Origin: an uncultured Lachnospiraceae bacterium
Lineage (GTDB): Bacteria; Bacillota; Clostridia; Lachnospirales; Lachnospiraceae
DNA: 12,036 bases
Assembly (NCBI GenBank): GCA_947653315.1
Contig: CANTGP010000051.1
Coordinates: forward strand, 1-12,036
Direction of reading: 5' to 3'
Position numbers and translations under genes: made by a program
Shown here: in pieces, positions 15 through 12,036 of the stretch
Numbering within the stretch: the first letter of the stretch is position 1
How the letters are laid out: the number at the start of each line of letters is the position of its first letter
The notes under the pieces: generated by a model
Told to the model about the DNA's origin: nothing
Database searches by the model: none
Seen by the model: only the letters and a program-made list of their open reading frames with translations

Positions 15-1616
15 TTAAATGTTTTTATTCATGTAATCCCTGGGGGAGACGCCGGTAATCTTCTTAAAAACCCGGCTGAAATAAAAGGCGCTTTCAAATC
101 CAAGCACATCGGAAATTTCGTAAATTTTGTAATCCCCGCCGGACATCATTTCTTTTGCGGCCTCTATTTTGCTGTGGTTGATATAGTCCGTAAATCCGGT
201 GTCGTTGTATTTGGAAAAAAGCACGCTTAAATAATTGGGGCTGATGTTAAAGACTTCCGCCACCTGGTTTAAGTTGAGTTTTTCCTTGATATGTTCCTGT
301 ATATATTTCTTAACGCTGATGACAATGTGGTTCTTGTAGTCCTTGTTGTGGGCGGCGAAGCTGTCACAAAGACCGTCCCGGAATTGTTTCAGCCATTCCA
401 TGATTTGTTCCACGTTGGTCAGCTCATAAAGGGAACGGTAGCCGTTGTTCCTGTCCCGGAAAATTTCCGAGACGGTCTGCTCCCCGTCGTTTAACAGGGA
501 AAGGGACAGGTATAAAATATTTCCGGCGGCATCCAACGCCTGTACATAGTGGGCGGACTGGTTTTCAAATAATTCCATGACGGACGTAAAGATGTCATAA
601 AGCGCTTTTTCGTCATATTCCGCATAGGCTTTACGGATGTCTTCCTTAAACAGGGAAATGTTAAATACGTTTTTTAACGGTTCGCTGGCAGGAATATCCT
701 CAAAAAACAGGATGGGATTTTCATGGGTAACCCGTGAAAATGCCTGTTTGGCATCCTGATAGGAGGAGGCAATCTGTAACGGTGCGGTAACGGGCGCCCC
801 GATGGCCGCATGGATGGTCACGCTGTAATAGTTAAACAGCATGGCGGATACCTGCTCTATGGCTTTTTGGATAATGCCCCGGTAATCGGCGGCATGTTCC
901 CCGTCCAAAAAAAACAGGATGCAGAAATGTTTCGTATCCAGGGAAAGGACATGGCAGGGAACGTATTTGGATGTCAGCTCTTTCGCCATCTGCAGGCTGT
1001 TGGAATAGAGGTTAATTTGTTTCTCCGTACTCATGCTGCCCAGCCTGCCGCTGCGGATTTCCACATAGCAGGCGGCAAAGGCGGAAAAACCGAAATCAAT
1101 GTTCAGGTTGTCCGCCTGTAACCGGAACTGCTGCTCGGATTCAAACAGGTTCAGGACAAGGCGGGTAAAAAACTGCTCCTTCAAAAAGTAAATATTGCCG
1201 TAAGCCGGTTCCGATACCTGCGCCGATGCCTGCAGTTCGGAGACTTTGCCGATGGCGCGTTTTAACGCCTCGCCAAGCACCTGCGGCGTCAGCTCCAGCT
1301 TCACCAGATAGTCGATAACCTGGTAGGTCAGCGCTTCCTTGACAAACTGGAATTCCTCATAACTGGTGAGAATGATAAATACGGGCAGGAGTCTTTCTTC
1401 CTCATGGCATTTTTTGGCGAGCTCCAAACCGCTCATCACCGGCATCTTAATGTCGGTAATGACGATTTCGGGGGCATATTCCTTTATCATTTCATAAGCC
1501 GCCGCACCATTTGCGGCGGTTCCTATGAGGCGGATGTTGTATTCTTCCCAGTTAATCATGGATTTGATGCCTGCCTGGATTAAAGGTTCGTCATCTGCAA
1601 TCAGTAAGTTAATCAT
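15..1616 (-). CDS. AraC-family two-component response regulator (YesN type)
   Basis: Cytoplasmic DNA-binding regulator of 533 residues, the partner of the kinase encoded just upstream. The receiver domain fills roughly residues 1-120: acidic pair D8/D9, phospho-acceptor D55 in the stretch TDIKMP, T84/S85, and K106 in DYLVK. A long middle region without recognisable motifs follows (about 125-428). The C-terminal AraC/XylS domain (about 429-533) has two helix-turn-helix segments near 449-468 and 499-518 and ends in the typical GVSPRDYM. The ATG overlaps the end of the kinase gene by 8 bases and is preceded by AGGGGAGG (minus strand, 1630-1623) six bases away, so the two genes are translationally coupled. 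By family precedent and the divergent layout, it most likely activates the transporter operon starting at 3699; this is inference. Domain call is sure, target is probable. Confidence 0.95.
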   Translation of the reverse strand: MINLLIADDEPLIQAGIKSMINWEEYNIRLIGTAANGAAAYEMIKEYAPEIVITDIKMPVMSGLELAKKCHEEERLLPVFIILTSYEEFQFVKEALTYQVIDYLVKLELTPQVLGEALKRAIGKVSELQASAQVSEPAYGNIYFLKEQFFTRLVLNLFESEQQFRLQADNLNIDFGFSAFAACYVEIRSGRLGSMSTEKQINLYSNSLQMAKELTSKYVPCHVLSLDTKHFCILFFLDGEHAADYRGIIQKAIEQVSAMLFNYYSVTIHAAIGAPVTAPLQIASSYQDAKQAFSRVTHENPILFFEDIPASEPLKNVFNISLFKEDIRKAYAEYDEKALYDIFTSVMELFENQSAHYVQALDAAGNILYLSLSLLNDGEQTVSEIFRDRNNGYRSLYELTNVEQIMEWLKQFRDGLCDSFAAHNKDYKNHIVISVKKYIQEHIKEKLNLNQVAEVFNISPNYLSVLFSKYNDTGFTDYINHSKIEAAKEMMSGGDYKIYEISDVLGFESAFYFSRVFKKITGVSPRDYMNKNI

Positions 1617-3435
1617 GCGCTACCTCCCCTGCCTGAAAAGGCAGTAATATGGAAACCGTGGTGAATTCCCCCGTTTTACTGGTGATATGCAGCCCGTAGG
1701 CGCTTCCGAATTCGTACTGCAGCCGTTTATGGACATTGCTGACGCCGATTTCCTTAAAAAAGGAGGAACCTGCCGAAGAATCGTTGTCCAAAAGGTGGGC
1801 GGCGACTTCGTCTTCCATGCCGATGCCGTCGTCGGTTACGTCGATATGGACATCCGTATGTTCATCCCGGTATATGTGTATGGTAATGGTGCCGGTGTTT
1901 CCTTTCGGCTCAATGCCGTGGAAAATGGCGTTTTCCACGATGGGCTGCAGGGTAAATTTTAAGATACGGCATTCGGTCAGCGTTTCGTCCTCGATGTCAA
2001 AGGATAAGGTGATGGTTCCGCCGTACCGGTACTGCTGTATGGTAAAATAATCCTTAATCAATGTTATTTCATGCGATATGGGAACGAGGTTCGTGGTTCC
2101 CTTGGAAATATCTTTTAACAGGCGGGAGAGGGCGGTGGTCATCTCCGCAATTCCCGTGGCGTTCTGTATGGTTGCCATCCATTTGATGGAATTTAACGTA
2201 TTGTACAGGAAGTGGGGATTAATCTGGCTTTGCAGCATCCGGTATTCGTAATCCTTTTTCTGCCGTTCGTCCTCGATTCTCTGGTTCATCAGGGAAAGCA
2301 CGTTTTCGGACAGGTCGTTGATATTTTTGCCGATGTCGCCCAGTTCATGTTCCCACTCCGTGGACGGGTCTCTGGAAAAGTCGCCGTCCGCAATCCGTTT
2401 CATCCGCACCTGCAGCTTCCGTACCGGCACGTTAACCGTCTTTGACAGGTAGCCGAAAAGCAAAATGCCGAGAAACGCGGAAGCGGTCAGGATGATTACG
2501 GTGACAAGGAGGAAGGTGGAGAAAATATCCCGTGAAAGGGTATGTTCGTCCAAACATTCCGTCACATATAAATTCCGCGTACCCAGCGGGCGCGTAACCA
2601 TGAGATAGGTTTTCTGTTCTTCCCGGCTCCAAACTTTTTGTATTTCCGTATCCCGGCTCAATGCATTGCCGGAAAGGTTTTCCAGCGGTTCAAATTCGTC
2701 TTCGCACAGAAGCAGGTTTTGCCCCGTATACCGGTACAGAGAATTCCCCATGCGGAAATAAAGGCGGTCGTCCGTGTCCGAAAGCGCATCCCGCATGGGG
2801 GATGTGATGACGGAGGTGGACATTTCCGTAAAAATATACCCGATTTCCCCTGCGCGGTAAGGGTGTTCGATGGTGTGGAGCATGGGAATGACGGGTAACG
2901 TTTTTGTGGTGAAAAAAGGATCCGGCAGGATTTCGGTGGCTATTTCACCGGTGTTTTCATAAAGTATCCCGAAATAGGGGAGCGACAGCACCGCTTCCGA
3001 GGAAACGGCAATGTTGGAATTAACGGCTTCCACGATTTGGATGATGTCCTTTCTGGATTTTCCGATGATGACCGCCCGGATAATCTGTGAGGACAGGGAA
3101 CTGTTGGAAGCGTATATTTCCGTGACAAAGTCGTGGGCTTCCCGTTTGGCGAGACTGTTCGGTACGTTTTCCCCCATGGCAAATTTGCTGATTTTATTGC
3201 TTTTCTGGCAGGAATCAATAAAGCCCTTTACGTTATTGATGTTGGAGTCGATGGAGGAACATAAAAAAGAAAGCCTGATTTCCGAAGTCTGTATCATGTT
3301 CTGCCTGAGGTTGTAAGACACGATAAAATAACTGATGGCAGTTATGATAATACTAATCAGCAGTATCATGGAAATGGTGCATAATAAAATCCGCGCGCGG
3401 ATGGTATGGAAAAATTTTTTCACGGGAATGTTCAC
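1609..3435 (-). CDS. Sensor histidine kinase (YesM type, HAMP + His_kinase + HATPase_c)
   Basis: Membrane sensor kinase of 608 residues. TM1 is at about 16-38, a large extracellular sensing region spans about 40-303, and TM2 is at about 305-330. HAMP follows (about 332-385), then the His_kinase domain with H408 in QSQINPHFLYN, characteristic of the LytS/YesM class. The ATPase domain has the N box ENAIFHG (501-507), G1 box DDGIGM (535-540) and GVSNVHKRL (564-572). All catalytic motifs look intact. The start is GTG (minus strand 3435-3433), chosen because AAAGGA lies five bases upstream and the next Met (residue 23) falls inside TM1. It is the first gene of a two-gene operon with the response regulator. 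The ligand is unknown; by context it would be a uronic-acid oligosaccharide or its loaded binding protein, but nothing in the extracellular region proves it. Confidence 0.94.
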   Translation of the reverse strand: MNIPVKKFFHTIRARILLCTISMILLISIIITAISYFIVSYNLRQNMIQTSEIRLSFLCSSIDSNINNVKGFIDSCQKSNKISKFAMGENVPNSLAKREAHDFVTEIYASNSSLSSQIIRAVIIGKSRKDIIQIVEAVNSNIAVSSEAVLSLPYFGILYENTGEIATEILPDPFFTTKTLPVIPMLHTIEHPYRAGEIGYIFTEMSTSVITSPMRDALSDTDDRLYFRMGNSLYRYTGQNLLLCEDEFEPLENLSGNALSRDTEIQKVWSREEQKTYLMVTRPLGTRNLYVTECLDEHTLSRDIFSTFLLVTVIILTASAFLGILLFGYLSKTVNVPVRKLQVRMKRIADGDFSRDPSTEWEHELGDIGKNINDLSENVLSLMNQRIEDERQKKDYEYRMLQSQINPHFLYNTLNSIKWMATIQNATGIAEMTTALSRLLKDISKGTTNLVPISHEITLIKDYFTIQQYRYGGTITLSFDIEDETLTECRILKFTLQPIVENAIFHGIEPKGNTGTITIHIYRDEHTDVHIDVTDDGIGMEDEVAAHLLDNDSSAGSSFFKEIGVSNVHKRLQYEFGSAYGLHITSKTGEFTTVSILLPFQAGEVAHD

Positions 3436-3475
3436 ACCTTTCCTTTGAAGTATTTATGGATGATCCATGGAGTAT

Positions 3476-3505
3476 ATTCTAACATAAGGTACGTTTGGGT
3501 GGAAA
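3476..3505 (-). promoter_or_regulatory. Candidate promoter for the kinase/regulator operon
   Basis: Reading the minus strand, TTTCCA (3505-3500) and TAGAAT (3481-3476) are separated by 18 bases and lie about 40 bases upstream of the GTG start. Matches to the sigma-A consensus are four of six and five of six. A 13-bp inverted repeat, ATGGAT-G-ATCCAT (3456-3468), sits just downstream in the presumed leader. Assigned by eye, so only moderate support. Confidence 0.3.
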
Positions 3506-3528
3506 GGAAAAGTGCGGAAAGTTGGAAA
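3501..3528. repeat. Cluster of four GGAAA repeats in the divergent control region
   Basis: GGAAA occurs at 3501, 3506, 3516 and 3524 on the plus strand, including two related units GGAAAAGT and GGAAAGTT about ten bases apart, roughly one helical turn. The cluster overlaps the candidate -35 of the kinase operon. It could be a binding site for the AraC-type regulator or a purine-rich upstream element. Short and low in complexity, so chance is possible. Confidence 0.25.
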
Positions 3529-3626
3529 TAAAGATAAAAAAGACATGTTTTTCAAAAAAAGTATATCTTTTTTCCCGCGGATTCCAAAATGTGAAATAAT
3601 TATGAATAAAAAATTAAAATTTTTCA

Positions 3627-3655
3627 TGTTCAGGTAAGGCAGGAAACCATATAAT
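3627..3655 (+). promoter_or_regulatory. Candidate promoter of the transporter/hydrolase operon
   Basis: A perfect -10 box, TATAAT (3650-3655), lies 43 bases before the ATG of the binding-protein gene. The hexamer 17 bases upstream, TGTTCA (3627-3632), matches the -35 consensus at only three positions. A strong -10 with a weak -35 is typical of activator-dependent promoters, which fits control by the adjacent AraC-type regulator. An AT-rich imperfect dyad, ATGAA (3602-3606) with TTCAT (3623-3627), lies immediately upstream, where an activator would bind. Confidence 0.5.
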
Positions 3656-3698
3656 GAAATTGCGAAATGCAAAATGAAGGAAAAGGGAGGAAGTTAGA

Positions 3699-5105
3699 AT
3701 GAAGAAAAAACTTGTAAGTGTTTTACTGGCAGCTACCATGTTGGCATCCGTGCTGGCAGGATGCGGCGGTTCCGGCTCCGAACCGGCAGCGGAGGCGCCT
3801 GCGGCAGAAGCTCCGGCAACGGATGCGGCTCCTGCGGAAACCCCGGCGGAACCGGCGGCAAACGACGTGGCCGATGCGGGCGAGACGGCTCCTGCCGCAG
3901 AAGGCGAAGCGGTTACGTTAAAATGGGCTATTTGGGATAAGGACATCACCCCTTACTGGCAGGCTTTGAAAGACGGCTATGAAGCGGCAAATCCCAATGT
4001 GACCATCGAAATGACGGATTTGGGTTCCACGGATTACATGACGGTACTGGCAACGGAGTTGTCGGGAAGCGGTTCCGATTTCGACGTGGTTACGATTAAG
4101 GATGTGCCGGGATATGCGACGCTGGTTTCCAAGAATACACTGGAGCCCCTTGACAGCTACATTTCCGAAGCAGGCATCGATTTGGGACAGTACGGCGGCG
4201 TGGACAAACAGGTTACGGTAAACGGAAGCCTGTATGAGCTTCCTTTCAGGAATGACTTTTGGGTAGTGTTCTACAACAAAGACATTTTTGACAATGCGGG
4301 CGTTGCTTACCCCACCAACGACATGACCTTTGAGGAGTATGACGCTTTGGCAAGGCAGGTGGCGGATCCTACGTTCGGCGCACAGGTATACGGTACCCAT
4401 TACCATACCTGGAGAAGTGCGGTGCAGTTGTTCGGCGTGCTGGACGGAAAGCATTCCATCCTGGACGGTACTTATGATTATTTCAAACCCTATTACGAAA
4501 TGGTATTAAAGCAGGAAGACGATAGCATCTGCAGGAACTATGCGGATTTGAGCGCGGAAGGACTGCATTACTCCGCAGCGTTCTCCGGCGGCGACGTGGC
4601 GATGTTGAACATGGGTTCCTGGTATATCTCCACCCTGATTGCAAGCCTTCAGAGCGGCGAATATGATTCTTCCCTCTGCGGAAACTGGGGCATCGTAAAA
4701 TATCCCCACGCAGAAGGTGTGGAAGCGGGTTCCACCCTCGGTACGATTACCGGTCTTGCAGTAACCAGCGTATCCTCGAATAAGGATGCGGCATTCGATT
4801 TCGTGGAGTGGGTATCCGGTGCGGAAGGCGCAAAGGTTATGGCACAAACGGGTAACTTCCCGGCGCTCATGACCGATGAAGTGGCAGGCATCATCGCAGG
4901 ATTGGAAGGTTTCCCTTCGGATGCGGAAAGCAAAGAAGCGCTGAATGTATCCAACCTGTACCTGGAAGTTCCTTATGCAGAGAACGTATCCGAAATCAAC
5001 GATATCCTCGATACTTACCACAAGTCCATCATGAACCGTGAAATGACCGTGGACGAAGGGATTGCGGCAATGAATGAAGAAGTAGGCAAGGTGCTGGGAC
5101 AGTAA
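3699..5105 (+). CDS. Sugar ABC transporter substrate-binding lipoprotein (family 1)
   Basis: Extracellular lipid-anchored protein of 468 residues that captures the oligosaccharide and delivers it to the permeases. It has a lysine-rich N-terminus and hydrophobic core, then the lipobox LAGC with the lipidated cysteine at residue 22. Residues 23-71 form an Ala/Glu/Pro-rich low-complexity linker. The mature fold begins near 72 (VTLKWAIWD) and runs to the end as a typical bacterial extracellular solute-binding protein of the MalE/UgpB group. The start is preceded by AAGGGAGG (3683-3690) eight bases upstream. It is the first gene of the plus-strand operon and the counterpart of YesO in Bacillus subtilis. 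The ligand cannot be read from the sequence; the downstream GH88 enzyme points to an unsaturated uronic-acid oligosaccharide. Confidence 0.94.
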   Translation: MKKKLVSVLLAATMLASVLAGCGGSGSEPAAEAPAAEAPATDAAPAETPAEPAANDVADAGETAPAAEGEAVTLKWAIWDKDITPYWQALKDGYEAANPNVTIEMTDLGSTDYMTVLATELSGSGSDFDVVTIKDVPGYATLVSKNTLEPLDSYISEAGIDLGQYGGVDKQVTVNGSLYELPFRNDFWVVFYNKDIFDNAGVAYPTNDMTFEEYDALARQVADPTFGAQVYGTHYHTWRSAVQLFGVLDGKHSILDGTYDYFKPYYEMVLKQEDDSICRNYADLSAEGLHYSAAFSGGDVAMLNMGSWYISTLIASLQSGEYDSSLCGNWGIVKYPHAEGVEAGSTLGTITGLAVTSVSSNKDAAFDFVEWVSGAEGAKVMAQTGNFPALMTDEVAGIIAGLEGFPSDAESKEALNVSNLYLEVPYAENVSEINDILDTYHKSIMNREMTVDEGIAAMNEEVGKVLGQ

Positions 5106-5150
5106 GAAAATGCCCGGAACCGTAGCCAAACGGAATATGCAGTAAAATAC

Positions 5151-5178
5151 GGGGCTGGCAGGGAAAACCGCCAGCCCC
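5151..5178 (+). other. Intercistronic stem-loop downstream of the binding-protein gene
   Basis: A perfect 9-bp stem, GGGGCTGGC (5151-5159) with GCCAGCCCC (5170-5178), encloses a 10-base loop 45 bases after the binding-protein stop codon. It is followed by AAAATATCC and not by a T-run, so it does not look like an intrinsic terminator. Such hairpins between binding-protein and permease genes commonly protect the upstream mRNA from 3' decay and give the binding protein a higher expression level. That role is inferred. Confidence 0.6.
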
Positions 5179-5183
5179 AAAAT

Positions 5184-5208
5184 ATCCGGCAAAACCGTGC
5201 CGCCGGAT
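5184..5208 (+). other. Second intercistronic stem-loop
   Basis: ATCCGGC (5184-5190) pairs with GCCGGAT (5202-5208) in a perfect 7-bp stem with an 11-base loop, five bases after the first hairpin. No T-run follows. With its neighbours it forms a series of RNA structures before the permease gene. Confidence 0.45.
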
Positions 5209-5224
5209 GAAGCAGGAGGGAAAA

Positions 5225-5238
5225 GTCCGGTACCGGAC
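5225..5238. repeat. 14-bp perfect palindrome upstream of the first permease gene
   Basis: GTCCGGTACCGGAC (5225-5238) is fully self-complementary. As RNA only a short 5-bp stem with a four-base loop can form; as DNA it is a possible dyad binding site. It lies 30 bases before the permease start codon, just upstream of its ribosome binding site. Confidence 0.4.
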
Positions 5239-5256
5239 ATGAATAAAAGAAAGGGC

Positions 5257-5261
5257 AGGAG
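5257..5261 (+). promoter_or_regulatory. Ribosome binding site deciding the permease start at 5269
   Basis: AGGAG is seven bases before the ATG at 5269. Two other in-frame starts lie upstream. The ATG at 5239 has its nearest AGGAGGG 18 bases away, and the GTG at 5197 lies inside the second hairpin with no good site. The 5269 start is therefore preferred. Confidence 0.65.
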
Positions 5262-5268
5262 TGAGAGA

Positions 5269-6318
5269 ATGGATGAAAAAAAAGCGGCTCAGGTAAAAAA
5301 ACTGGAAACGGAATCCGCAGAGCTGATGCGTCTGATCCGTGCGGAAAACGACATAGAGAAAAAGAAAAAACTGATTGCGAAAAGGGACGGCATACAGAGA
5401 AAAGTGACCGCGGTCAGGAATAACCGGAAAATAAGCAGGGAAACAAAGAGGGACATTGTCGCTTATTCGTTTATTGCGCCAAACTTTATCGGCTTTGCCG
5501 TATTTACCCTGATTCCCATTATTTTTGCCTTTATGCTGGCTTTTATGGATTGGGACGGAAGCAATGCGGCATCTTTTGTGGGTTTGGCGAATTTCAAGAA
5601 ACTGGTGGGTGATACGTTCTTTGTGGCGGCGTTAAAAAATACAATTATATACGTAATCGGTACGGTGCCGCTTACCATGATTGCATCCCTGGCGCTTGCC
5701 ATCGTACTGAATCAGAAAATTGTGGCGCGGGGGTTTTTCCGTACCGTCGCCTTCTTCCCTTACGTGGCGTCGCTGGTGGCGATTACCGCGGTATGGAGCA
5801 TGATTTTCCATCCTTCCAAGGGTCCCGTGAACTATCTGCTCTTAACCCTTTTTAAAGTGCCGCAAAACGAGCTGCCAAAGTGGTTCAGCGGAAGTCTGGT
5901 ACTGTTCACCCTGATTTTGTTCAGCGTATGGAAGTATATGGGCTATTATATGGTGATTTACCTTGCGGGCCTGCAGGGGATTTCCGCAGAGCTTTATGAG
6001 GCGGGGAGCCTTGACGGCGCTACCACATGGCAGAAATTTTGCTATATCACATGGCCGCAGCTTCGTTCCACCACGTTTTTCGTCGTGGTTATGCTGACCA
6101 TTAACTGTTTTAAGGTCTATGACATTGCCGTTATGCTGGCGGGAGGCGGCGACGGAAAATTAAGTACCTCGGCGACCGTCCTTGTTTATTATATCTACCA
6201 AAACGCGTTTAACTATTGGGATCTCGGATATTCCAGTGCAATCGCGATGGTGCTGTTCTTAATGGTTCTCGTGGTGACGCTGATCCAGTTCAGGTACGAG
6301 AAGAAATTAGGCGAATAG
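5269..6318 (+). CDS. Sugar ABC transporter permease (first subunit, UgpA/YesP type)
   Basis: Integral membrane permease of 349 residues that forms the import channel with the next gene product. Six hydrophobic segments span about 63-340. The EAA loop that contacts the ATPase is at about 243-265 (YEAGSLDGATTWQKF and on to WPQ). Residues 1-60 form a highly charged stretch rich in Lys, Glu and Arg with heptad-like hydrophobic spacing, probably a cytoplasmic coiled coil. Permeases of this class are usually about 290-310 residues and lack it. The start was set by the ribosome binding site at 5257-5261; an in-frame reading from 5197 would add 24 residues. The stop is 25 bases before the second permease. 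Family assignment is firm, substrate is inferred from context. Confidence 0.93.
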   Translation: MDEKKAAQVKKLETESAELMRLIRAENDIEKKKKLIAKRDGIQRKVTAVRNNRKISRETKRDIVAYSFIAPNFIGFAVFTLIPIIFAFMLAFMDWDGSNAASFVGLANFKKLVGDTFFVAALKNTIIYVIGTVPLTMIASLALAIVLNQKIVARGFFRTVAFFPYVASLVAITAVWSMIFHPSKGPVNYLLLTLFKVPQNELPKWFSGSLVLFTLILFSVWKYMGYYMVIYLAGLQGISAELYEAGSLDGATTWQKFCYITWPQLRSTTFFVVVMLTINCFKVYDIAVMLAGGGDGKLSTSATVLVYYIYQNAFNYWDLGYSSAIAMVLFLMVLVVTLIQFRYEKKLGE

Positions 6319-6343
6319 GGATAACGGGAAAGGAGGAGCTAAG

Positions 6344-7219
6344 ATGGGCAATACAAACAATAACGAAACCAACAAGAAGTTTAAATCGAAAAGAAAAGCC
6401 GAGATAGCCGGTAAAGTAGGCGTGTATCTTGTGCTGCTGATTATTACGGCATGTATGATCGTCCCCTTCCTGTGGATGCTTTCCGCTTCCATTAAGTCGA
6501 ACCGGGAAGTTTTCCTGATGGATCCGTTCGTATGGATTCCGGAGCAGCCGAAATGGGATAATTACATAAACATTTGGACGAAAATTCCTTTGTTAAAATT
6601 TGTGGAAAATACGGTTATCCTGACGATTGTGGTAACCTTCCTGCAGCTTTTGACATCCAGCTTTGCGGCATATTCTTTTGCAAAACTGGAGTTTAAGCAT
6701 AAAAATGCTTTGTTCCTGGCCTATATTGCCACCATCGCCATGCCTTGGCAGGTGTACATGGTACCCCAGTTTATCATGATGAGGGGGATGGGGCTGAACG
6801 ATAAGCTGCTGGCAATGATTTGTTTACAGGCGTTTTCCGCATTCGGCGTATTCTTAATGAAGCAGTTTTATGAAGGAATTCCCAATGATTTGTGTGAGGC
6901 GGCGAGGATTGACGGTATGAGCGAATATCGGATTTACGCGAAAATCATGCTGCCGCTGTCAAAGCCCGCGCTGTCTACGCTGACCATTTTCACGTTCGTG
7001 AATACCTGGAATGATTACCTTGGTCCCTTGATTTATTTAAGGACGGAAACGAAGAAGACCATCCAGTTAGGTTTGAAAATGTTTATCGGCCAGTATTCCG
7101 CGGAATACGGTCTGATTATGGCAGGCTCGGTGGTATCGCTGGTGCCGGTAATTATCGTATTCCTTTGCCTGCAGAAATACTTTGTGGAAGGTGTTGCGTC
7201 CACCGGGTTAAAGGGATAA
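6344..7219 (+). CDS. Carbohydrate ABC transporter permease (second subunit, UgpE/YesQ type)
   Basis: Integral membrane permease of 291 residues, normal length for the family, partner of the preceding permease. After a short polar N-terminus, TM1 runs at about 24-48. Further hydrophobic segments lie near 87-110, 122-145, 155-175, 208-230 and 258-280. The EAA loop is at about 185-204 (EAARIDGMSEYRIYAKIMLP), the contact site for the nucleotide-binding subunit. AAAGGAGG (6329-6336) lies seven bases before the ATG. No ATPase gene follows; the next gene is the GH88 hydrolase. This is usual for family-1 sugar importers of Gram-positive bacteria, which share one MsmK/UgpC-type ATPase encoded elsewhere. 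Confidence 0.95.
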   Translation: MGNTNNNETNKKFKSKRKAEIAGKVGVYLVLLIITACMIVPFLWMLSASIKSNREVFLMDPFVWIPEQPKWDNYINIWTKIPLLKFVENTVILTIVVTFLQLLTSSFAAYSFAKLEFKHKNALFLAYIATIAMPWQVYMVPQFIMMRGMGLNDKLLAMICLQAFSAFGVFLMKQFYEGIPNDLCEAARIDGMSEYRIYAKIMLPLSKPALSTLTIFTFVNTWNDYLGPLIYLRTETKKTIQLGLKMFIGQYSAEYGLIMAGSVVSLVPVIIVFLCLQKYFVEGVASTGLKG

Positions 7220-7242
7220 GATGGAGAGACGGAGAAAGGTAT

Positions 7243-7248
7243 GGGAGG
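7243..7248 (+). promoter_or_regulatory. Ribosome binding site favouring the GH88 start at 7256
   Basis: GGGAGG is seven bases before the ATG at 7256. The upstream in-frame ATG at 7241 has GGAG (7231-7234) at six bases, a weaker but usable site. The five extra residues it would add (MGGKA) carry no recognisable motif, so 7256 is preferred without certainty. Confidence 0.5.
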
Positions 7249-7255
7249 AAAAGCG

Positions 7256-8446
7256 ATGTTGTTTGAAAATATGCCGGTGATCACCGGGGAAGAAGTGGAC
7301 CGCGCCCTGCGTTTTTCGGCGGAACAGGTCGTGCGGAACCTGCCGGAATTTACGCATAAGTTCCAAAAGGCTTACAGTGAAAACGGTTTTTACCATCCGA
7401 TTGAGAACAATTACTGGACGACGGGTTTTTGGACAGGGGAAATCTGGCTGGCATACGAATATATGAAAGGGCTGGGGGAGGCCGGAAAAGATGCGGCAGG
7501 GCAGCTCAGGGAAGCCGGGGAAATCCAGATTGACAGCTTCTTAAACCGTATTGACAAAAAAATCGAGGTGGACCACCACGACATGGGATTCCTTTATTCC
7601 CCGTCCTGCGTGGCGGGATACAAGCTGGTTGGAAGCAGGAAAGGGCGGGAGGCCGCCATAAAGGCGGCGGACCAGTTGATTACGCGTTACCATCCGGTGG
7701 GGGAATTTATCCAGGCATGGGGTCCCATGGATGCGCCGGAGAATTACCGCCTGATCATTGACTGTCTGCTGAACCTGCCGCTGTTATACTGGGCGTCGGA
7801 GGAAACCGGGGACGGTAAGTACAGGGAGATTGCGGAGAAGCATATCCATACGGCGGTGAAAAATGTCATCCGTGAGGATTATTCCACATGGCATACGTTT
7901 TTCTTTAATATGGAAACGGGCGCTCCCGACCACGGCGCTACCTGTCAGGGATACCGTGACGGTTCCGCGTGGGCGAGGGGGCAGGCGTGGGGGATTTACG
8001 GATGCGCGCTGGCTTACAAGTATACCAAGCGGGAAGAATACATTGATAATTTTAAACATGTGACACAGTACTTTTTGGAGCATCTGCCAAAGGACATGGT
8101 TCCGTTTTGGGATTTGGAATTTACGGACGGGGACGACCAGCCCAGGGATTCTTCTTCCGCCTCCATTGCGGCGTGCGGCATGTTGGAAATGATAAAATCC
8201 ATGGGAGCGGAGGATGCGGCGGTTTATAAAAAATATGCCCTGCAGCTCATGAAGTCGGTATATGACAATTATGCGGTAAAAGATGCCGGGGAATCCAACG
8301 GTTTGGTGCTGCACAGCACCTATTCCAACCATTCCCCTTATAATACCTGCAATCATTACGGGGTGGACGAATGCAACTCCTGGGGGGATTATTTCTATAT
8401 GGAAGCGCTGACAAGGCTGCAGAAGGACTGGGTATTGTATTGGTAG
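7256..8446 (+). CDS. ugl: Unsaturated glucuronyl hydrolase (GH88)
   Basis: Cytoplasmic enzyme of 396 residues (401 if begun at 7241), the usual length for GH88, with no signal peptide. It hydrolyses the 4-deoxy-4,5-unsaturated uronic acid from the non-reducing end of oligosaccharides made by polysaccharide lyases, by hydration of the double bond. Numbered from 7256, the two conserved acidic residues of the family are visible: D109 in HDMGFLYSP and D169 in IIDCLLNLPLLYWA. Other GH88 landmarks are SAWARGQAWGIYG (about 237-249), SSASIAACG (about 300-308) and GVDECNSWGDYFYMEAL (about 369-385). The fold is an (alpha/alpha)6 barrel. The SxxSxK region linked to sulfated substrates in streptococcal enzymes reads SNHSPY here, without the lysine. 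GH105 was considered, but these motifs favour GH88. It follows the permease by 36 bases, so its substrate is probably what the transporter imports. Confidence 0.93.
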   Translation: MLFENMPVITGEEVDRALRFSAEQVVRNLPEFTHKFQKAYSENGFYHPIENNYWTTGFWTGEIWLAYEYMKGLGEAGKDAAGQLREAGEIQIDSFLNRIDKKIEVDHHDMGFLYSPSCVAGYKLVGSRKGREAAIKAADQLITRYHPVGEFIQAWGPMDAPENYRLIIDCLLNLPLLYWASEETGDGKYREIAEKHIHTAVKNVIREDYSTWHTFFFNMETGAPDHGATCQGYRDGSAWARGQAWGIYGCALAYKYTKREEYIDNFKHVTQYFLEHLPKDMVPFWDLEFTDGDDQPRDSSSASIAACGMLEMIKSMGAEDAAVYKKYALQLMKSVYDNYAVKDAGESNGLVLHSTYSNHSPYNTCNHYGVDECNSWGDYFYMEALTRLQKDWVLYW

Positions 8447-8465
8447 GAAAGGAGGAGCCGGGGCG

Positions 8466-10190
8466 ATGCGGACGGATTGGGAAGGAAAATTGGACAGTAA
8501 GAAGGATTTTCAGGATTTGCTGATGGAAATACTGAATCCGCTGCTTCCGTATTACAGCGAAGGAAAGGCGGAACTGGTACTGGGGGTTACGGCGACAAAT
8601 TATGACCAAAAGGCAATCCGGCTGGAAGCGTTTTCGCGGCCGTTATGGGGGCTGGTTCCTTTGTGGGCGGGCGGCGGAAGCGCGCCTGCCTTTGAGGAAA
8701 TATACCGGAAGGGCCTGGCGGAAGGGACGAACCCGGACAGTAAGGAATATTGGGGCGGCTTCCATGCCTTTGACCAAAGGTTTGTGGAAATGGCGGCGAT
8801 TTCCTACGGGCTGATTTTGGCGCCGGAGAAGGTGTGGGAGCCTTTGACGGAAAAAGAGAAGGACGGTTTGGCGGATTGGCTGTACGGAATTAACCGGTAT
8901 GAACTGCCGGTCTGCAACTGGATTTTATTTGCGGTATTGGTGAATATAGCCCTTAAGAAGCTGGGGAGAAAGTATGATGCCGAAAAGCTGGAAACCTATT
9001 TAAAGGGTGCGGATACTTTTTATTTGGGCGATGGCTGGTACCAGGACGGGGATTCGGGACAGAAGGATTATTATGTGTCGTTTGCCATTCATTTTTACAG
9101 TCTGTTTTATGCCAAGGTGATGGAGGAGGAAGACGCGGAGCGCAGCCGGTTATATAAAGAAAGGGCGGCCTTGTTTGCAAAGCAGTTTATATATTGGTTT
9201 GACGGGAACGGGGCGGCGCTGCCGTTCGGGCGTTCCCTGACTTACCGTTTTTCCCAGGTGAGCTTTTTCTGTGCCTGTCTGATGGCGGGGGTGGAGCCTT
9301 TCCCCATAGGCGTCATGAAAGGGCTAATCGTAAGGCATTTGTGCGACTGGATGAAGAAACCCATTTTTGACCGGAACGGCATCCTGACCATCGGGTACGG
9401 TTATCCCGATTTGGTGATGGGGGAGCGTTATAACGGACCGGGGTCGCCGTATTGGGCGCTGAAAACTTTTGCGGTGCTGATGCTGCCGGACGATCATCCG
9501 TTTTGGAGTGCAAAGGCACAGCCCATGCCGGAATTAAAAGAGCAGACAGCGCTTCCCTGCGCGGATATGTTAATCCGCCGTTACGAAAACCATACCACGG
9601 CATATGTGCCGGGCAGGTACAGCCCTGCCGGTCACGGGCAGACGCCTGCAAAGTACGGGAAGTTTGCCTATGACACCAGGTTCGCTTTTAATGTGGCGAA
9701 ATCAACCTGTGAACTGCATGAGGCTGCGCCGGACAGTATGCTGGCTTTTTTGGTAAACGGTTATGTATACGTGAGAAGGATTTGCGGAAAGTTCCATGTG
9801 TCGGAAACGGACGTGACATCGGAATGGACGCCGTATGAGGGAATTACGGTGGAAACCGTAATCGTACCTACCAGGCATGGGCATATCCGCAAGCATATCA
9901 TAGAAAGCGACAGGGAGTGTGAAGCCTGTGACTGTGGTTTTGCGGTGGAAATCGATGTGCCGGGAGAGAAACTGGTGGAGGAAGACAATACTGCATGGGT
10001 GGAAAACGGTTATAGTATCTGTCAGGTGATTGCGGTACAGGGGGAGGGCAGAGGGGAAATCATCATTGCCGATCCCAATACGAACCTGCTGCACCCGATG
10101 ACGCGGATTCCGGCGGTGCGTTACCGGATTCACAAGGGCAGGAATGAGATTGTTACGGAAGTAAAAGCGAGATACCACCGTACATGGTAA
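8466..10190 (+). CDS. DUF2264 domain-containing protein, putative glycoside-active enzyme
   Basis: Protein of 574 residues without signal peptide, so intracellular. The pattern matches the DUF2264 family: EAFSRPLWGLVPLWAGG (about 54-70), DGWYQDGDSGQKDYYVSFA (about 189-207), LPFGRSLTYRFSQ (about 252-264) and YNGPGSPYWALKTF (about 322-335). The N-terminal two thirds are helix- and Trp/Tyr-rich, suggesting an alpha-barrel; the last 200 residues look beta-rich. No catalytic residue is established by inspection. I recall a CAZy family of beta-glucuronidases (GH154) being tied to this domain, but could not check it. Its place directly behind GH88, with AAAGGAGGAG (8448-8457) before its ATG, suggests a second step on the same uronic-acid oligosaccharide. 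Family call is good; the reaction is unproven. Confidence 0.85.
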   Translation: MRTDWEGKLDSKKDFQDLLMEILNPLLPYYSEGKAELVLGVTATNYDQKAIRLEAFSRPLWGLVPLWAGGGSAPAFEEIYRKGLAEGTNPDSKEYWGGFHAFDQRFVEMAAISYGLILAPEKVWEPLTEKEKDGLADWLYGINRYELPVCNWILFAVLVNIALKKLGRKYDAEKLETYLKGADTFYLGDGWYQDGDSGQKDYYVSFAIHFYSLFYAKVMEEEDAERSRLYKERAALFAKQFIYWFDGNGAALPFGRSLTYRFSQVSFFCACLMAGVEPFPIGVMKGLIVRHLCDWMKKPIFDRNGILTIGYGYPDLVMGERYNGPGSPYWALKTFAVLMLPDDHPFWSAKAQPMPELKEQTALPCADMLIRRYENHTTAYVPGRYSPAGHGQTPAKYGKFAYDTRFAFNVAKSTCELHEAAPDSMLAFLVNGYVYVRRICGKFHVSETDVTSEWTPYEGITVETVIVPTRHGHIRKHIIESDRECEACDCGFAVEIDVPGEKLVEEDNTAWVENGYSICQVIAVQGEGRGEIIIADPNTNLLHPMTRIPAVRYRIHKGRNEIVTEVKARYHRTW

Positions 10191-10258
10191 ATCAGGCGGG
10201 CGGCAGGCGCAAGGAGTGCAGCGGCAGGACCGTATTGTATGGAAAGGCGGAGACCGGC

Positions 10259-10267
10259 AGGAAGGAG
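10259..10267 (+). promoter_or_regulatory. Ribosome binding site deciding the DUF624 gene start
   Basis: AGGAAGGAG lies eight bases before the ATG at 10276. A GTG at 10216 is in the same frame but would add 20 polar residues unlike the family and has no well-spaced site. Confidence 0.6.
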
Positions 10268-10275
10268 CATGGGAA

Positions 10276-10908
10276 ATGGCAAAGCTGTTTAGTTATGATA
10301 ATCCGGTATGGAGGTTTATGGGCAGGGTGGCGGATGTGTTTTTCCTGACGGTGCTTTGGGCGGTGTGCTGCCTGCCGGTGGTGACGGTGGGCGCTTCCAC
10401 TTCCGCACTTTATTATGTGTCGTTAAAAATGGCAAAAAACAGGGAAGGTTATCTTGGGAAATCTTTCTTAAAGGCTTTTAAGGATAATTTTGCACAGGCA
10501 ACGGCAGTATGGCTCCTTATGCTTGCCGCAGGCGGTTTTCTTGGCGCGGATTTGTATTTTTTCTACCATATGGAATCGCGGGCGGGGGTTTTTGCTTTTT
10601 GGCTGTTTTTGGTGTTTACGGTATTTTGGCTGTTTGTGGCGGTGCTTGTGTTTCCCTTGGAGGCGCGGCTGGATACGAAGGTGGGAAACCTGTTTTTCAT
10701 GGCGTTTATGGTCTGCATCAAGAATTTCTCCTGGGTGCTGTTGATGGCGGTTACGGCGGTCTGTGTCCTGGCGGTGGGTGTGTTCGTGTTTTGGCCGGTG
10801 CTGCTTTTGGGGGCAGGGACCGTCGCTTATGTCCATTCCCTGATACTGGTTTGGATGGTGTTTCCGAAATACGGGTGGAATGGGGAAGAAGCGGAGGAGG
10901 CAGCGTGA
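10276..10908 (+). CDS. DUF624 family membrane protein (YesL type)
   Basis: Small integral membrane protein of 210 residues, matching the usual length of YesL. The opening MAKLFSYDNPVWRFMGRVAD, the segment LWAVCCLPVVTVGASTSALYY (about 27-47) and KNREGYLGKSFLKAFKDNF (about 54-72) are typical DUF624 features. Five hydrophobic segments are seen near 18-42, 76-95, 103-127, 150-172 and 174-195. Function is unknown. The family is repeatedly found next to YesM/YesN regulators and sugar ABC transporters, including the Bacillus subtilis yes locus, so a role in transport or its regulation is plausible. It sits 85 bases after the DUF2264 gene; that gap shows no promoter or terminator I can support, so it is probably co-transcribed. 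Confidence 0.88.
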   Translation: MAKLFSYDNPVWRFMGRVADVFFLTVLWAVCCLPVVTVGASTSALYYVSLKMAKNREGYLGKSFLKAFKDNFAQATAVWLLMLAAGGFLGADLYFFYHMESRAGVFAFWLFLVFTVFWLFVAVLVFPLEARLDTKVGNLFFMAFMVCIKNFSWVLLMAVTAVCVLAVGVFVFWPVLLLGAGTVAYVHSLILVWMVFPKYGWNGEEAEEAA

Positions 10909-10974
10909 ATTTACGGAACGGACACGTTTAGCGGTTTCGTTTAACGGATTTTTGGAAAGGACAGGGTTGGATTT

Positions 10975-11766
10975 ATGGCGACTTTGGCATTAAAAGTGTT
11001 GGATAAAAACGGGAAAACGGTTTGCGTAAGCAGCGGGGAGGATTACGTAAGCCTTGTATGCACGGCGGAATACCGGGAAGGCGACCGTATCGTGCTGGAA
11101 ACCTCGGAAAAGAACCTGCACGTAGTTTGGCAGGTAGACGATGCATTGGGGGCGGCGTTTTGTTATATTACGGGAAACGTGTCCTATGGGATTCCTTTCG
11201 GGGAAAAACGGATTTGTTATTCACCGAAAGCATTTTACGGGAACCGGCATTATCTGTATGCCCGGACGGCGAGGGAGGACGAGGTCGGGGCATACCGGAA
11301 TTTGGCGCTCAATATTTGCGACCAGCATGGCGATACGGGATGCTTTCCCCATGCGTATGCCAATGTGGAGACAAGGGGAGAATCGGTGTTTGCGGCGCGC
11401 AACGCCATCGACGGCGTATGCGAGAACCGTTCCCACGGCGAATGGCCTTATGAATCATGGGGCATTAACATGCAGGACGATGCGGAAATGACCGTGGATT
11501 TCGGGAGGGAAGTGGAAGCGGACAAAGTGGTTTTGTATACCCGTTCGGATTTCCCCCACGATAACTGGTGGAAGCAGGTGAAGCTGTCTTTCTCCGACGG
11601 TTCCGAAACCGTATGGGATTTGGAAAAAAGCAGCCTGCCCCATGTGCTTACGTTTGAAAAAAAGAGGATTACGTGGGTGCGTTTGGGGGATTTGATCAAA
11701 GCGGACGATCCGTCGCCGTTTCCGGCGCTGAGCCAAATGGAGGTGTATGGACGGGTAGTGGTGTGA
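10975..11766 (+). CDS. Putative intracellular carbohydrate-binding protein with galactose-binding-like C-terminal domain
   Basis: Protein of 263 residues with no signal peptide or membrane segment. The C-terminal half (about 125-260) looks like an F5/8 type C or discoidin-type beta-sandwich: ESVFAARNAIDG (136-147), a tryptophan-rich patch (HGEWPYESWGINMQDDAEM, 154-172), VDFGREVEADKVVLYTR (174-190) and the closing SQMEVYGR (253-260). The N-terminal half (1 to about 120) is also predicted beta-rich and contains YGIPFGEKRICYSPKAF (71-87) and DQHG (116-119); I do not recognise a named domain there. No catalytic motif is evident. AGGG (10964-10966 with the preceding A) lies eight bases before the ATG. 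As last gene of a uronic-acid operon it may bind the imported sugar or assist the hydrolases; this is inference. Confidence 0.7.
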   Translation: MATLALKVLDKNGKTVCVSSGEDYVSLVCTAEYREGDRIVLETSEKNLHVVWQVDDALGAAFCYITGNVSYGIPFGEKRICYSPKAFYGNRHYLYARTAREDEVGAYRNLALNICDQHGDTGCFPHAYANVETRGESVFAARNAIDGVCENRSHGEWPYESWGINMQDDAEMTVDFGREVEADKVVLYTRSDFPHDNWWKQVKLSFSDGSETVWDLEKSSLPHVLTFEKKRITWVRLGDLIKADDPSPFPALSQMEVYGRVVV

Positions 11767-11837
11767 AGGGGGCATGTTATAAGAGGGGCGGACGCACGTG
11801 CGGGATTTTTTTGCGGGGCGGCGGCAGCGGGATGGCA
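11767..11837. other. Spacer after the last gene: G-rich, no convincing gene or terminator
   Basis: A 71-base stretch between the last stop codon and the inverted-repeat element. It holds a 10-bp palindrome CGCACGTGCG (11793-11802) followed by GGGA-like bases and a run of seven T (11806-11812). The palindrome can form only a three-pair stem with a four-base loop, too weak for a normal intrinsic terminator, although the T-run position would suit one. Confidence 0.4.
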
Positions 11838-11920
11838 TGTCCCGGTTTTCCGTGCACTTTTTTCGGCGGGTTTTTCTAAACAGAATGGGTAGGGGTTTCA
11901 CTGGCTGCGGTCGCCCTCTA

Positions 11921-11936
11921 TCGGCATCCATGCCGA
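11921..11936. repeat. Small hairpin 1 in the core of the inverted-repeat element
   Basis: TCGGCAT and ATGCCGA flank the two bases CC, giving a 7-bp inverted repeat around the motif CATCCATG. In RNA the loop would open to at least four bases. Confidence 0.6.
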
Positions 11937-11944
11937 ATCGGGCT

Positions 11945-11968
11945 AAATCGGGCATCCATGCCCGATTT
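11945..11968. repeat. Small hairpin 2 in the core of the inverted-repeat element
   Basis: AAATCGGGCAT (11945-11955) and ATGCCCGATTT (11958-11968) form an 11-bp perfect inverted repeat around CC, with the same CATCCATG centre as the preceding hairpin. The left-arm octamer AATCGGGC also occurs ten bases upstream (11936-11943), so the right arm could pair with either copy. Confidence 0.65.
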
Positions 11969-12036
11969 CCCTTAGGTATCCACATTCTGTTAAGAAAAAC
12001 TCCGCCGAAAACGAAGCACGGAAAATCCGGGACAGG

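Follow-up and report, generated by a model that had tools for sequence, protein, structure and literature searches.

A TwoAYGGAY (RF01731) copy as the probable core of a dispersed fold-back mobile element in Lachnospiraceae

The contig of an uncultured Lachnospiraceae bacterium analysed here (G000:C51:1-12036; "the window" denotes this whole stretch of 12,036 nucleotides) ends in an assembly-breaking repeat that occupies its final 250 bases. We read positions 11788 to 12036, together with the part lying beyond the contig end, as one copy of a dispersed, non-autonomous, fold-back MITE-like element centred on the RNA family TwoAYGGAY (Rfam RF01731), in which two small hairpins serve as RNA sites, most likely for the regulator CsrA; to this reading as a whole we assign a probability of roughly 0.6. 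Its parts carry different weight: the case for a mobile element in this genus is strong, that for an RNA-level constraint on the hairpins is moderate, and the CsrA step is what we infer and what can be tested. The RNA family itself is already known, with its function unproven; what is new is the reading of what carries it.

The inverted repeat and its RNA core

The features of the window that bear on this reading are the following.

10975-11766, plus strand: final gene of a sugar-uptake and glucuronyl-hydrolase-type operon, coding for 263 aa with weak similarity to F5/8 type C
11788-11837, strandless: outer continuation of the left arm, beginning GCGGACGCAC (BLAST and alignment of other copies)
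11838-11887, strandless: left arm of the inverted repeat, the inner part of the long stem (gapped alignment)
11856-12015, minus strand: Rfam RF01731 (TwoAYGGAY) match, model positions 1-168 of 168 (cmscan)
11921-11936, minus strand: second hairpin of the core as read on the RNA strand; its stem closes a loop AUGGAU at 11926-11931
11945-11968, minus strand: first hairpin of the core as read on the RNA strand; its stem AAATCGGGC / GCCCGATTT closes a loop AUGGAU at 11954-11959
11983-12034, strandless: right arm of the inverted repeat (gapped alignment)

The initial annotation had described two reverse-complement arms within 11838-12034, far beyond chance and enclosing two nested hairpins, and these points are borne out. 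The arms pair with 47 matches, 1 mismatch and 6 gap positions in a gapped alignment (score 67, as against 25 for the next-best tiled local inverted repeat in the window and 28 for the best of 1000 composition shuffles), and the predicted folding energy is -110.8 kcal/mol on the minus strand (z -11.6) and -111.8 kcal/mol on the plus strand (z -12.5); on neither strand did any of 200 shuffles fold as well. The two hairpins of the core share GGCATCCATGCC, which is present at 11923-11934 and at 11951-11962. Two details of that description have to be corrected: the arms differ chiefly by short gaps and not by clustered mismatches, and the interval was drawn too small. BLAST matches of other copies begin at 11787-11788 (query position 8-9), and other copies in the same genome mirror GCGGACGCAC by ...GTGCGTCCGC on the far side, which in the window falls past the contig end. 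The right side of the window's element is incomplete because the contig stops at 12036, inside the element. Allowing up to 1 mismatch, the outer-end pattern occurs at 59+55 sites and its reversed control at 15+8, and further outward other copies carry the tail CAACAYAACATTCAGGCTGAACNGTTAC; the left end of the window's copy is not the intact end motif described below, and its right end lies off the contig. The earlier statement that no gene explains the arms holds: a minus-strand reading frame at 11455-11985 was considered as a gene and rejected, having no Pfam match and running antisense through the last operon gene.

The whole TwoAYGGAY model is covered on the minus strand at 78.4 bits (E 2.4e-12; gathering score 43; cmscan), or at E 6.8e-14 when the stretch alone is scanned, and RF01731 is the sole Rfam family in the whole window. 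The match includes all 168 model positions, both AYGGAY-loop hairpins on one strand and the outer stem that closes around them. The earlier suggestion of a structured RNA thereby gains a family name, as yet without an established function. TwoAYGGAY is typed Cis-reg in Rfam; the table of the discovery paper lists it, for human gut, gamma-Proteobacteria and Clostridiales, as probably an RNA and not cis-regulatory (PMC2864571), and a 2014 motif paper proposed it to be a CsrA-binding sRNA of Clostridia (PMC4333381). Later papers treat, in the parts that name the family, only its fold and covariation (PMC11661157, PMC11701678, PMC7657543), and one of these three reports extra covarying pairs that extend the annotated helix. 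The passages naming the family in these five papers (PMC2864571, PMC4333381, PMC11661157, PMC11701678, PMC7657543) make no mention of mobility, and literature linking Rfam, MITEs and CsrA, on fold-back MITEs in Clostridia, or on CsrA binding together with transposable elements yielded nothing on this element. Compared with the model, the element described here is longer, with outer arms of up to about 200 bp and, in the genus, terminal repeats and target duplications, and the second loop position is N and not only Y. TD-2 RNA (RF03162), which likewise has hairpins with AUGGAU-like loops, was rejected as an identity (20.5 bits, E 0.94, as against a gathering score of 48.7).

Copies, ends and target duplications

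A palindromic repeat spread through the host genome had been among the earlier suggestions, and BLAST of 11780-12036, with 40 of 157 candidates scored, locates the repeat at no fewer than 40 places in the window's own genome; the single-copy outcome, which would have spoken against it, did not occur. The 54 BLAST rows reduce to these 40 places, the other 14 being second-arm matches at places already counted. Identity ranges from 94% down to about 76%, and 30 of the 40 places lie within 60 bp of a contig end. The covariance model detects 13 copies in this genome. Exact CAYGGAAATCAATTT is found there at 7+7 sites (reversed control 0), one core-bearing copy (L024) has CATGGAAACCAATTTTTG as its outer end, and a 73-bp core-less element (L403) is flanked by a 9/9 duplication. 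A phage- or plasmid-borne repeat was also considered, and no match was found in phage and plasmid collections.

Among 61 relatives, RF01731 was detected in 14, and among the 16 members of the genus in 12, with up to 37 copies among the matches listed per genome. In congeners, the core lies inside fold-back elements of about 300-460 bp that have CAYGGAAATCAATTTT ends and no transposase gene; in G004 and G015, both arms extend 100-200 bp out to the ends CAYGGAAATCAATTTT...AAAATTGATTTCCRTG. Allowing up to one mismatch, G015 has 54 sites of the end motif and G004 has 33, and the reversed control none. Both ends were located in 29 of 40 copies of these two genomes (11 were dropped, their ends falling below the score limit; L136, of 686 bp, is among those kept and is probably mis-ended), and in 11 of the 29 the 9-bp flanks agree at 8-9 of 9 bases, four of them perfectly, as against 0 of 812 mispaired 9-mer controls. 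This agreement is limited to a length of 9; lengths of 5-8 and 10-12 gave nothing comparable. G001 and G002 contain compact whole elements, 304-307 bp long, that have the ends, the core hairpins and the duplication.

L410 (G001/G002): 304 bp, duplication 7/9
L411 (G001/G002): 306 bp, duplication 7/9
L412 (G001/G002): 307 bp, duplication 8/9

Core-less derivatives of 67-86 bp were found in G000 (duplication 9/9), G001 (7/9 and 2/9) and G003 (8/9). Elements of this kind, about 50-90 bp long and with little beyond two CAYGGAAATCAATTTT ends (L403, L414, L415, L416, L319, L329), stand beside the long elements and also in the window's genome, some of them with 9-bp duplications.

Given the 9-bp duplications and the terminal repeats, the core is in these congeners the core of a MITE-like mobile element, and we regard mobility within the genus as nearly certain. 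For one subfamily, the transposon reading has been demonstrated; for the window's copy we infer it, and considering homology, the shared genome and L024, it is very probable that this copy, too, belongs to a mobile element. The earlier suggestion of a MITE is thus upheld by terminal repeats and duplications in congeners and extended on these grounds to the window. The exact end motif is present in 8 of the 16 genus members and absent from five that are RF01731-positive (G008, G009, G011, G013, G014); copies in G008, G011, G014, G019 and G023 have other ends or flanks, with no clear duplication seen. An autonomous, full-length relative with the same ends, which the initial annotation had proposed to look for, was not found among the PF01609 transposase loci of 10 congeners (G015, G004, G001 and seven others), nor do the sites listed for the genus include paired exact ends 1-3 kb apart. 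One candidate for an autonomous copy, L332, with long matching arms around a transposase, turned out to be a different insertion sequence inside a copy.

Among bacterial MITEs, QMITE2 of Coxiella has terminal inverted repeats and a 7-9 bp target duplication (PMC10969869). The present element resembles such MITEs in being short and geneless, in its terminal inverted repeats, in a duplication of similar length (9 bp) and in the strong fold of the whole transcript, and differs from them in that its arms form one fold-back stem of almost full length that varies between copies, in its conserved two-hairpin RNA core, and in that no parental transposase was found among the same PF01609 loci.

Arms and core hairpins under different constraints

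The arms and the core behave differently when copies are compared. Over the 90 bp of arm adjoining the RF01731 model, the two arms of one copy agree at 0.90 (G015, 22 copies) and 0.93 (G004, 17 copies), while arms of different copies agree at 0.67 and 0.71 (shuffled 0.59 and 0.60); the core is shared between copies at 0.87 and 0.88. In 19 of 22 copies of G015 and 13 of 17 of G004, an arm is closer to its own opposite arm than to the arm of any other copy. High identity within and low identity between copies mean, therefore, that the arms drift and are repeatedly re-made symmetric.

Mismatched pairs on the RNA strand separate the two layers further. They were counted in 87 copies, that is, 88 less one (G014:C2:1930494-1930659) which lies in a folded-back contig end repeating C1:4273. 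The arms hold 116 G-U and 141 A-C pairs and the outer stem of the Rfam model 31 and 43, whereas the ANGGA core hairpins hold 12 G-U and 1 A-C, a small count; the contrast of the hairpins with the arms and with the outer stem is significant in both cases (Fisher p 0.0009 and 0.0007). A second extraction of 114 hairpins gave 11 G-U against 1 A-C, and these events are spread over different genomes and positions, one apparently shared pair excepted. Since the outer stem came from the same covariance model, the selection of matches by the model alone does not explain the contrast, although the bias of model-based selection is present in the wobble count, and the copies are related. RNA selection as the cause of the long arms was rejected, A-C mismatches being as common in them as G-U pairs. 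Stems that differ between copies, stay self-complementary and show no G-U excess look maintained at the DNA level, and their pattern would fit template switching inside palindromes, a mutation mechanism on record by which perfect hairpins are formed and preserved (PMC8794818). The core hairpins, judging by their substitutions, are probably constrained as RNA. Selection on the fold, raised in the initial annotation, accordingly stands for the two small hairpins and falls for the long arms.

The loops point in the same direction. All 31 core loops counted in BLAST-selected copies of the window's own genome, where the model-based bias is reduced, read ANGGAT, with N being T in 22, C in 5, A in 3 and G in 1, and no other position varies (the count left out three hairpin calls other than the ANGGA core hairpins, one in L018 and two in L021; at its stem limit, no hairpin was obtained from 5 of 30 loci). 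In the 87 model-found copies, 100 of 105 strong core hairpins are likewise ANGGAT. CsrA recognises GGA preceded by a free N in the loop of a hairpin, a pattern on which the 2014 proposal was also based, and all nine departures from ATGGAT fall on the position left free by the CsrA consensus. A CsrA gene is present in the window's own genome (G000:C75:9665-9820, E 5.1e-24).

Across a sample of 398 genomes of the phylum, CsrA was matched in 49 of 51 RF01731-positive and in 236 of 347 other genomes (Fisher p 4e-6, a statistic that ignores kinship). RF01731 was accepted there at E up to 0.001, with 6 candidates per genome scored and 34 of the 51 above cut-off, and the two samples were taken as identical because the same genome handles appear in both. 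Two positives in this set, G241 (94% complete) and G295, have no CsrA match. The 61 near relatives show no significant association (CsrA in 11 of 14 positive against 31 of 47 other genomes; p 0.52), and the positives G003, G009 and G013 lack a CsrA match, of which G003 is 97% complete and has 9 RF01731 matches. We give CsrA about even odds of being the partner of the twin hairpins, a candidacy that draws on loop pattern and gene distribution. The known CsrA-sequestering RNAs (CsrB, CsrC, RsmX/Y/Z) share with the element the paired GGA-bearing hairpin loops, the ANGGA pattern with its free N, and a host that has CsrA (PMC4333381); the element differs from them in having two predicted sites per unit, in being spread as a mobile element, and in that no promoter was seen.

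The mechanism that we propose would comprise three steps. A DDE-type transposase supplied in trans would recognise CAYGGAAATCAATTTT-type ends and insert the element between genes with a 9-bp target duplication, as the congeners display and as the window's copy presumably followed. Palindrome correction at the DNA level by template switching, and not RNA selection, would then keep the arms complementary, to go by the substitution pattern. Finally, the two core hairpins, on the Rfam strand and with the loop ANGGAU, would be conserved as RNA and most likely act as paired CsrA sites; the sequence constraint is observed, the function is conditional. A transcribed copy would bind CsrA, adding to or acting within the CsrA network of the cell.

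Gene context, rival readings and range

In the window, the element lies directly after the stop codon of the gene at 10975-11766, both Pfam matches of which are below their cut-offs, and the RNA strand is antisense to that gene; read-through from the operon would therefore not display the GGA loops. The cluster at 15-11766 comprises a two-component regulator pair, an ABC sugar transporter, a glycosyl hydrolase of family 88, DUF2264, DUF624 and the 263-aa protein. No promoter-like site was seen in 11500-12036. Within 1200 bp after the orthologue of 10975-11766, ANGGAY hairpins are found in 0 of 6 congeners; the sequence after the orthologue differs between genomes, so that this shows absence at the place and not a clean empty site. 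With respect to neighbouring genes, 72 copies (the 87, less 9 in which a reading frame crosses the palindrome and 6 that lack a neighbour) are divergent in 24 cases, convergent in 15 and co-directional in 19 and 14, which is no orientation bias, and in the sense direction neither 5' nor 3' untranslated regions are preferred. Without such a bias and without a promoter-like site, transcription is not evident, and cis-regulation as a general role was rejected, given the lack of orientation bias.

These observations would also suit a mobile element whose hairpins matter only as DNA, through cruciform or single-strand recognition by a transposase or not at all, and have no RNA role. The arms and the outer stem, which have no G-U preference, agree with this, and an insertion sequence of G015 that targets exactly these hairpin loops (described below) implies that something reads the loops as DNA. 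Against it stand the core hairpins, which are unlike the arms in their 12 to 1 ratio of G-U to A-C, and a loop that is fixed as ANGGAT except at N. A purely DNA-level role is the most serious competitor, and still rather unlikely.

The published view of TwoAYGGAY, a stationary CsrA-binding sRNA gene or cis-regulatory RNA, draws on its Rfam type, on the proposal in the 2014 paper (PMC4333381) and on the co-occurrence with CsrA across genomes, and it suits L385, L390 and L391, which mark a single conserved place in three genomes of one genus. For the genus studied here, it is contradicted by the terminal repeats and 9-bp duplications, and tens of copies per genome, the use of all gene arrangements and the six element-free orthologous places also speak against it, which makes it improbable. 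Elsewhere in the phylum, RF01731 loci in other families mostly measure 204-230 bp and have short arms, and most of 26 loci measured outside the family have the short stem of the model only. As the outside loci are mostly short-stemmed, mobility may be special to this lineage, in which the family, perhaps an old RNA, may have turned into a mobile element or been taken up by one.

That the element terminates or attenuates transcription of the upstream operon, a reading raised in the initial annotation and suggested by its position right after the last stop codon, is very improbable: 2 terminator-like sites against 0.8 +/- 1.1 in shuffles are not above chance, copies elsewhere lie between divergent genes as often as in any other of the four arrangements, and 6 of 6 orthologous operon ends do without it. 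A 100-bp stem may nevertheless stop or stabilise transcripts as a side effect. A REP/BIME-like palindrome mobilised by a RAYT (Y1 tyrosine) transposase would also be dispersed and intergenic, but is very improbable, as the 9-bp target duplications point to a staggered-cut DDE enzyme and Y1 transposases are not known to make such a duplication.

If the fold-back MITE-like element with RNA-level hairpins is the right reading, a curated RNA family that is listed as cis-regulatory, with its function unproven, is here the core of a mobile element. The conservation of TwoAYGGAY can then be re-read: most of its paired columns, those of the long stem, would be explicable by DNA-level palindrome correction that mimics RNA covariation, and the true RNA signal would be confined to the two small hairpins. 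The underlying comparison, arms in which G-U is as rare as A-C against hairpins with G-U only, is a simple test that is applicable to other palindromic "RNA" families. Should the hairpins bind CsrA, a transposon would be dispersing sites for a global regulator, and the 2014 proposal becomes directly testable. In its most far-reaching form the idea is tentative and rather unlikely to hold in full: TwoAYGGAY, as an RNA that binds CsrA, would have been captured by a fold-back transposon or have turned into one, and would now place twin CsrA sites between genes tens of times over, so that transposition itself would re-wire a global post-transcriptional regulator, with arms rewritten copy by copy through DNA template switching.

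Several further repeats were encountered. Paired GCATGGATGC hairpins recur as a wide DNA pattern in many unrelated phyla (116 loci, L154-L269), several per genome in Shewanella, Pseudomonas and an Alteromonadaceae bin; in a cmscan of 18 of the 116, only 3 were RF01731, so that most of these loci are something else and no range is drawn from them. A second repeat family in the window's genome shares the end motif of the element but continues as ...TTTCCGYYCACCCTCCTGCTGCGGTTTGG (L398, L399, L401, L402, L404, L405, L406, L407, L409). At the end of a contig, the locus L289 (G014:C2:1929500-1931700) forms a near-perfect palindrome whose arms are 481 bp long; it duplicates the copy at G014:C1:4273 and looks like a fold-back assembly artefact.

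The insertion sequence of G015 is 1594 bp long, encodes a 447-aa DDE_Tnp_1 protein, has the ends GGTAATGTCATTAAGTTAGG and makes a 7-bp duplication. Of 6 copies with both sides resolved, 4 (L332, L338, L342 and L344) are inserted precisely into the loop of a TwoAYGGAY-like hairpin; one side of L340 shows this as well, but L335 and L346 do not. The duplicated heptamer is that of the loop (CATCCAT, CCTCCGT, CATGGAG), flanked by 9 of 9 pairs, and the insertion sequence looks as if it targets hairpin loops.
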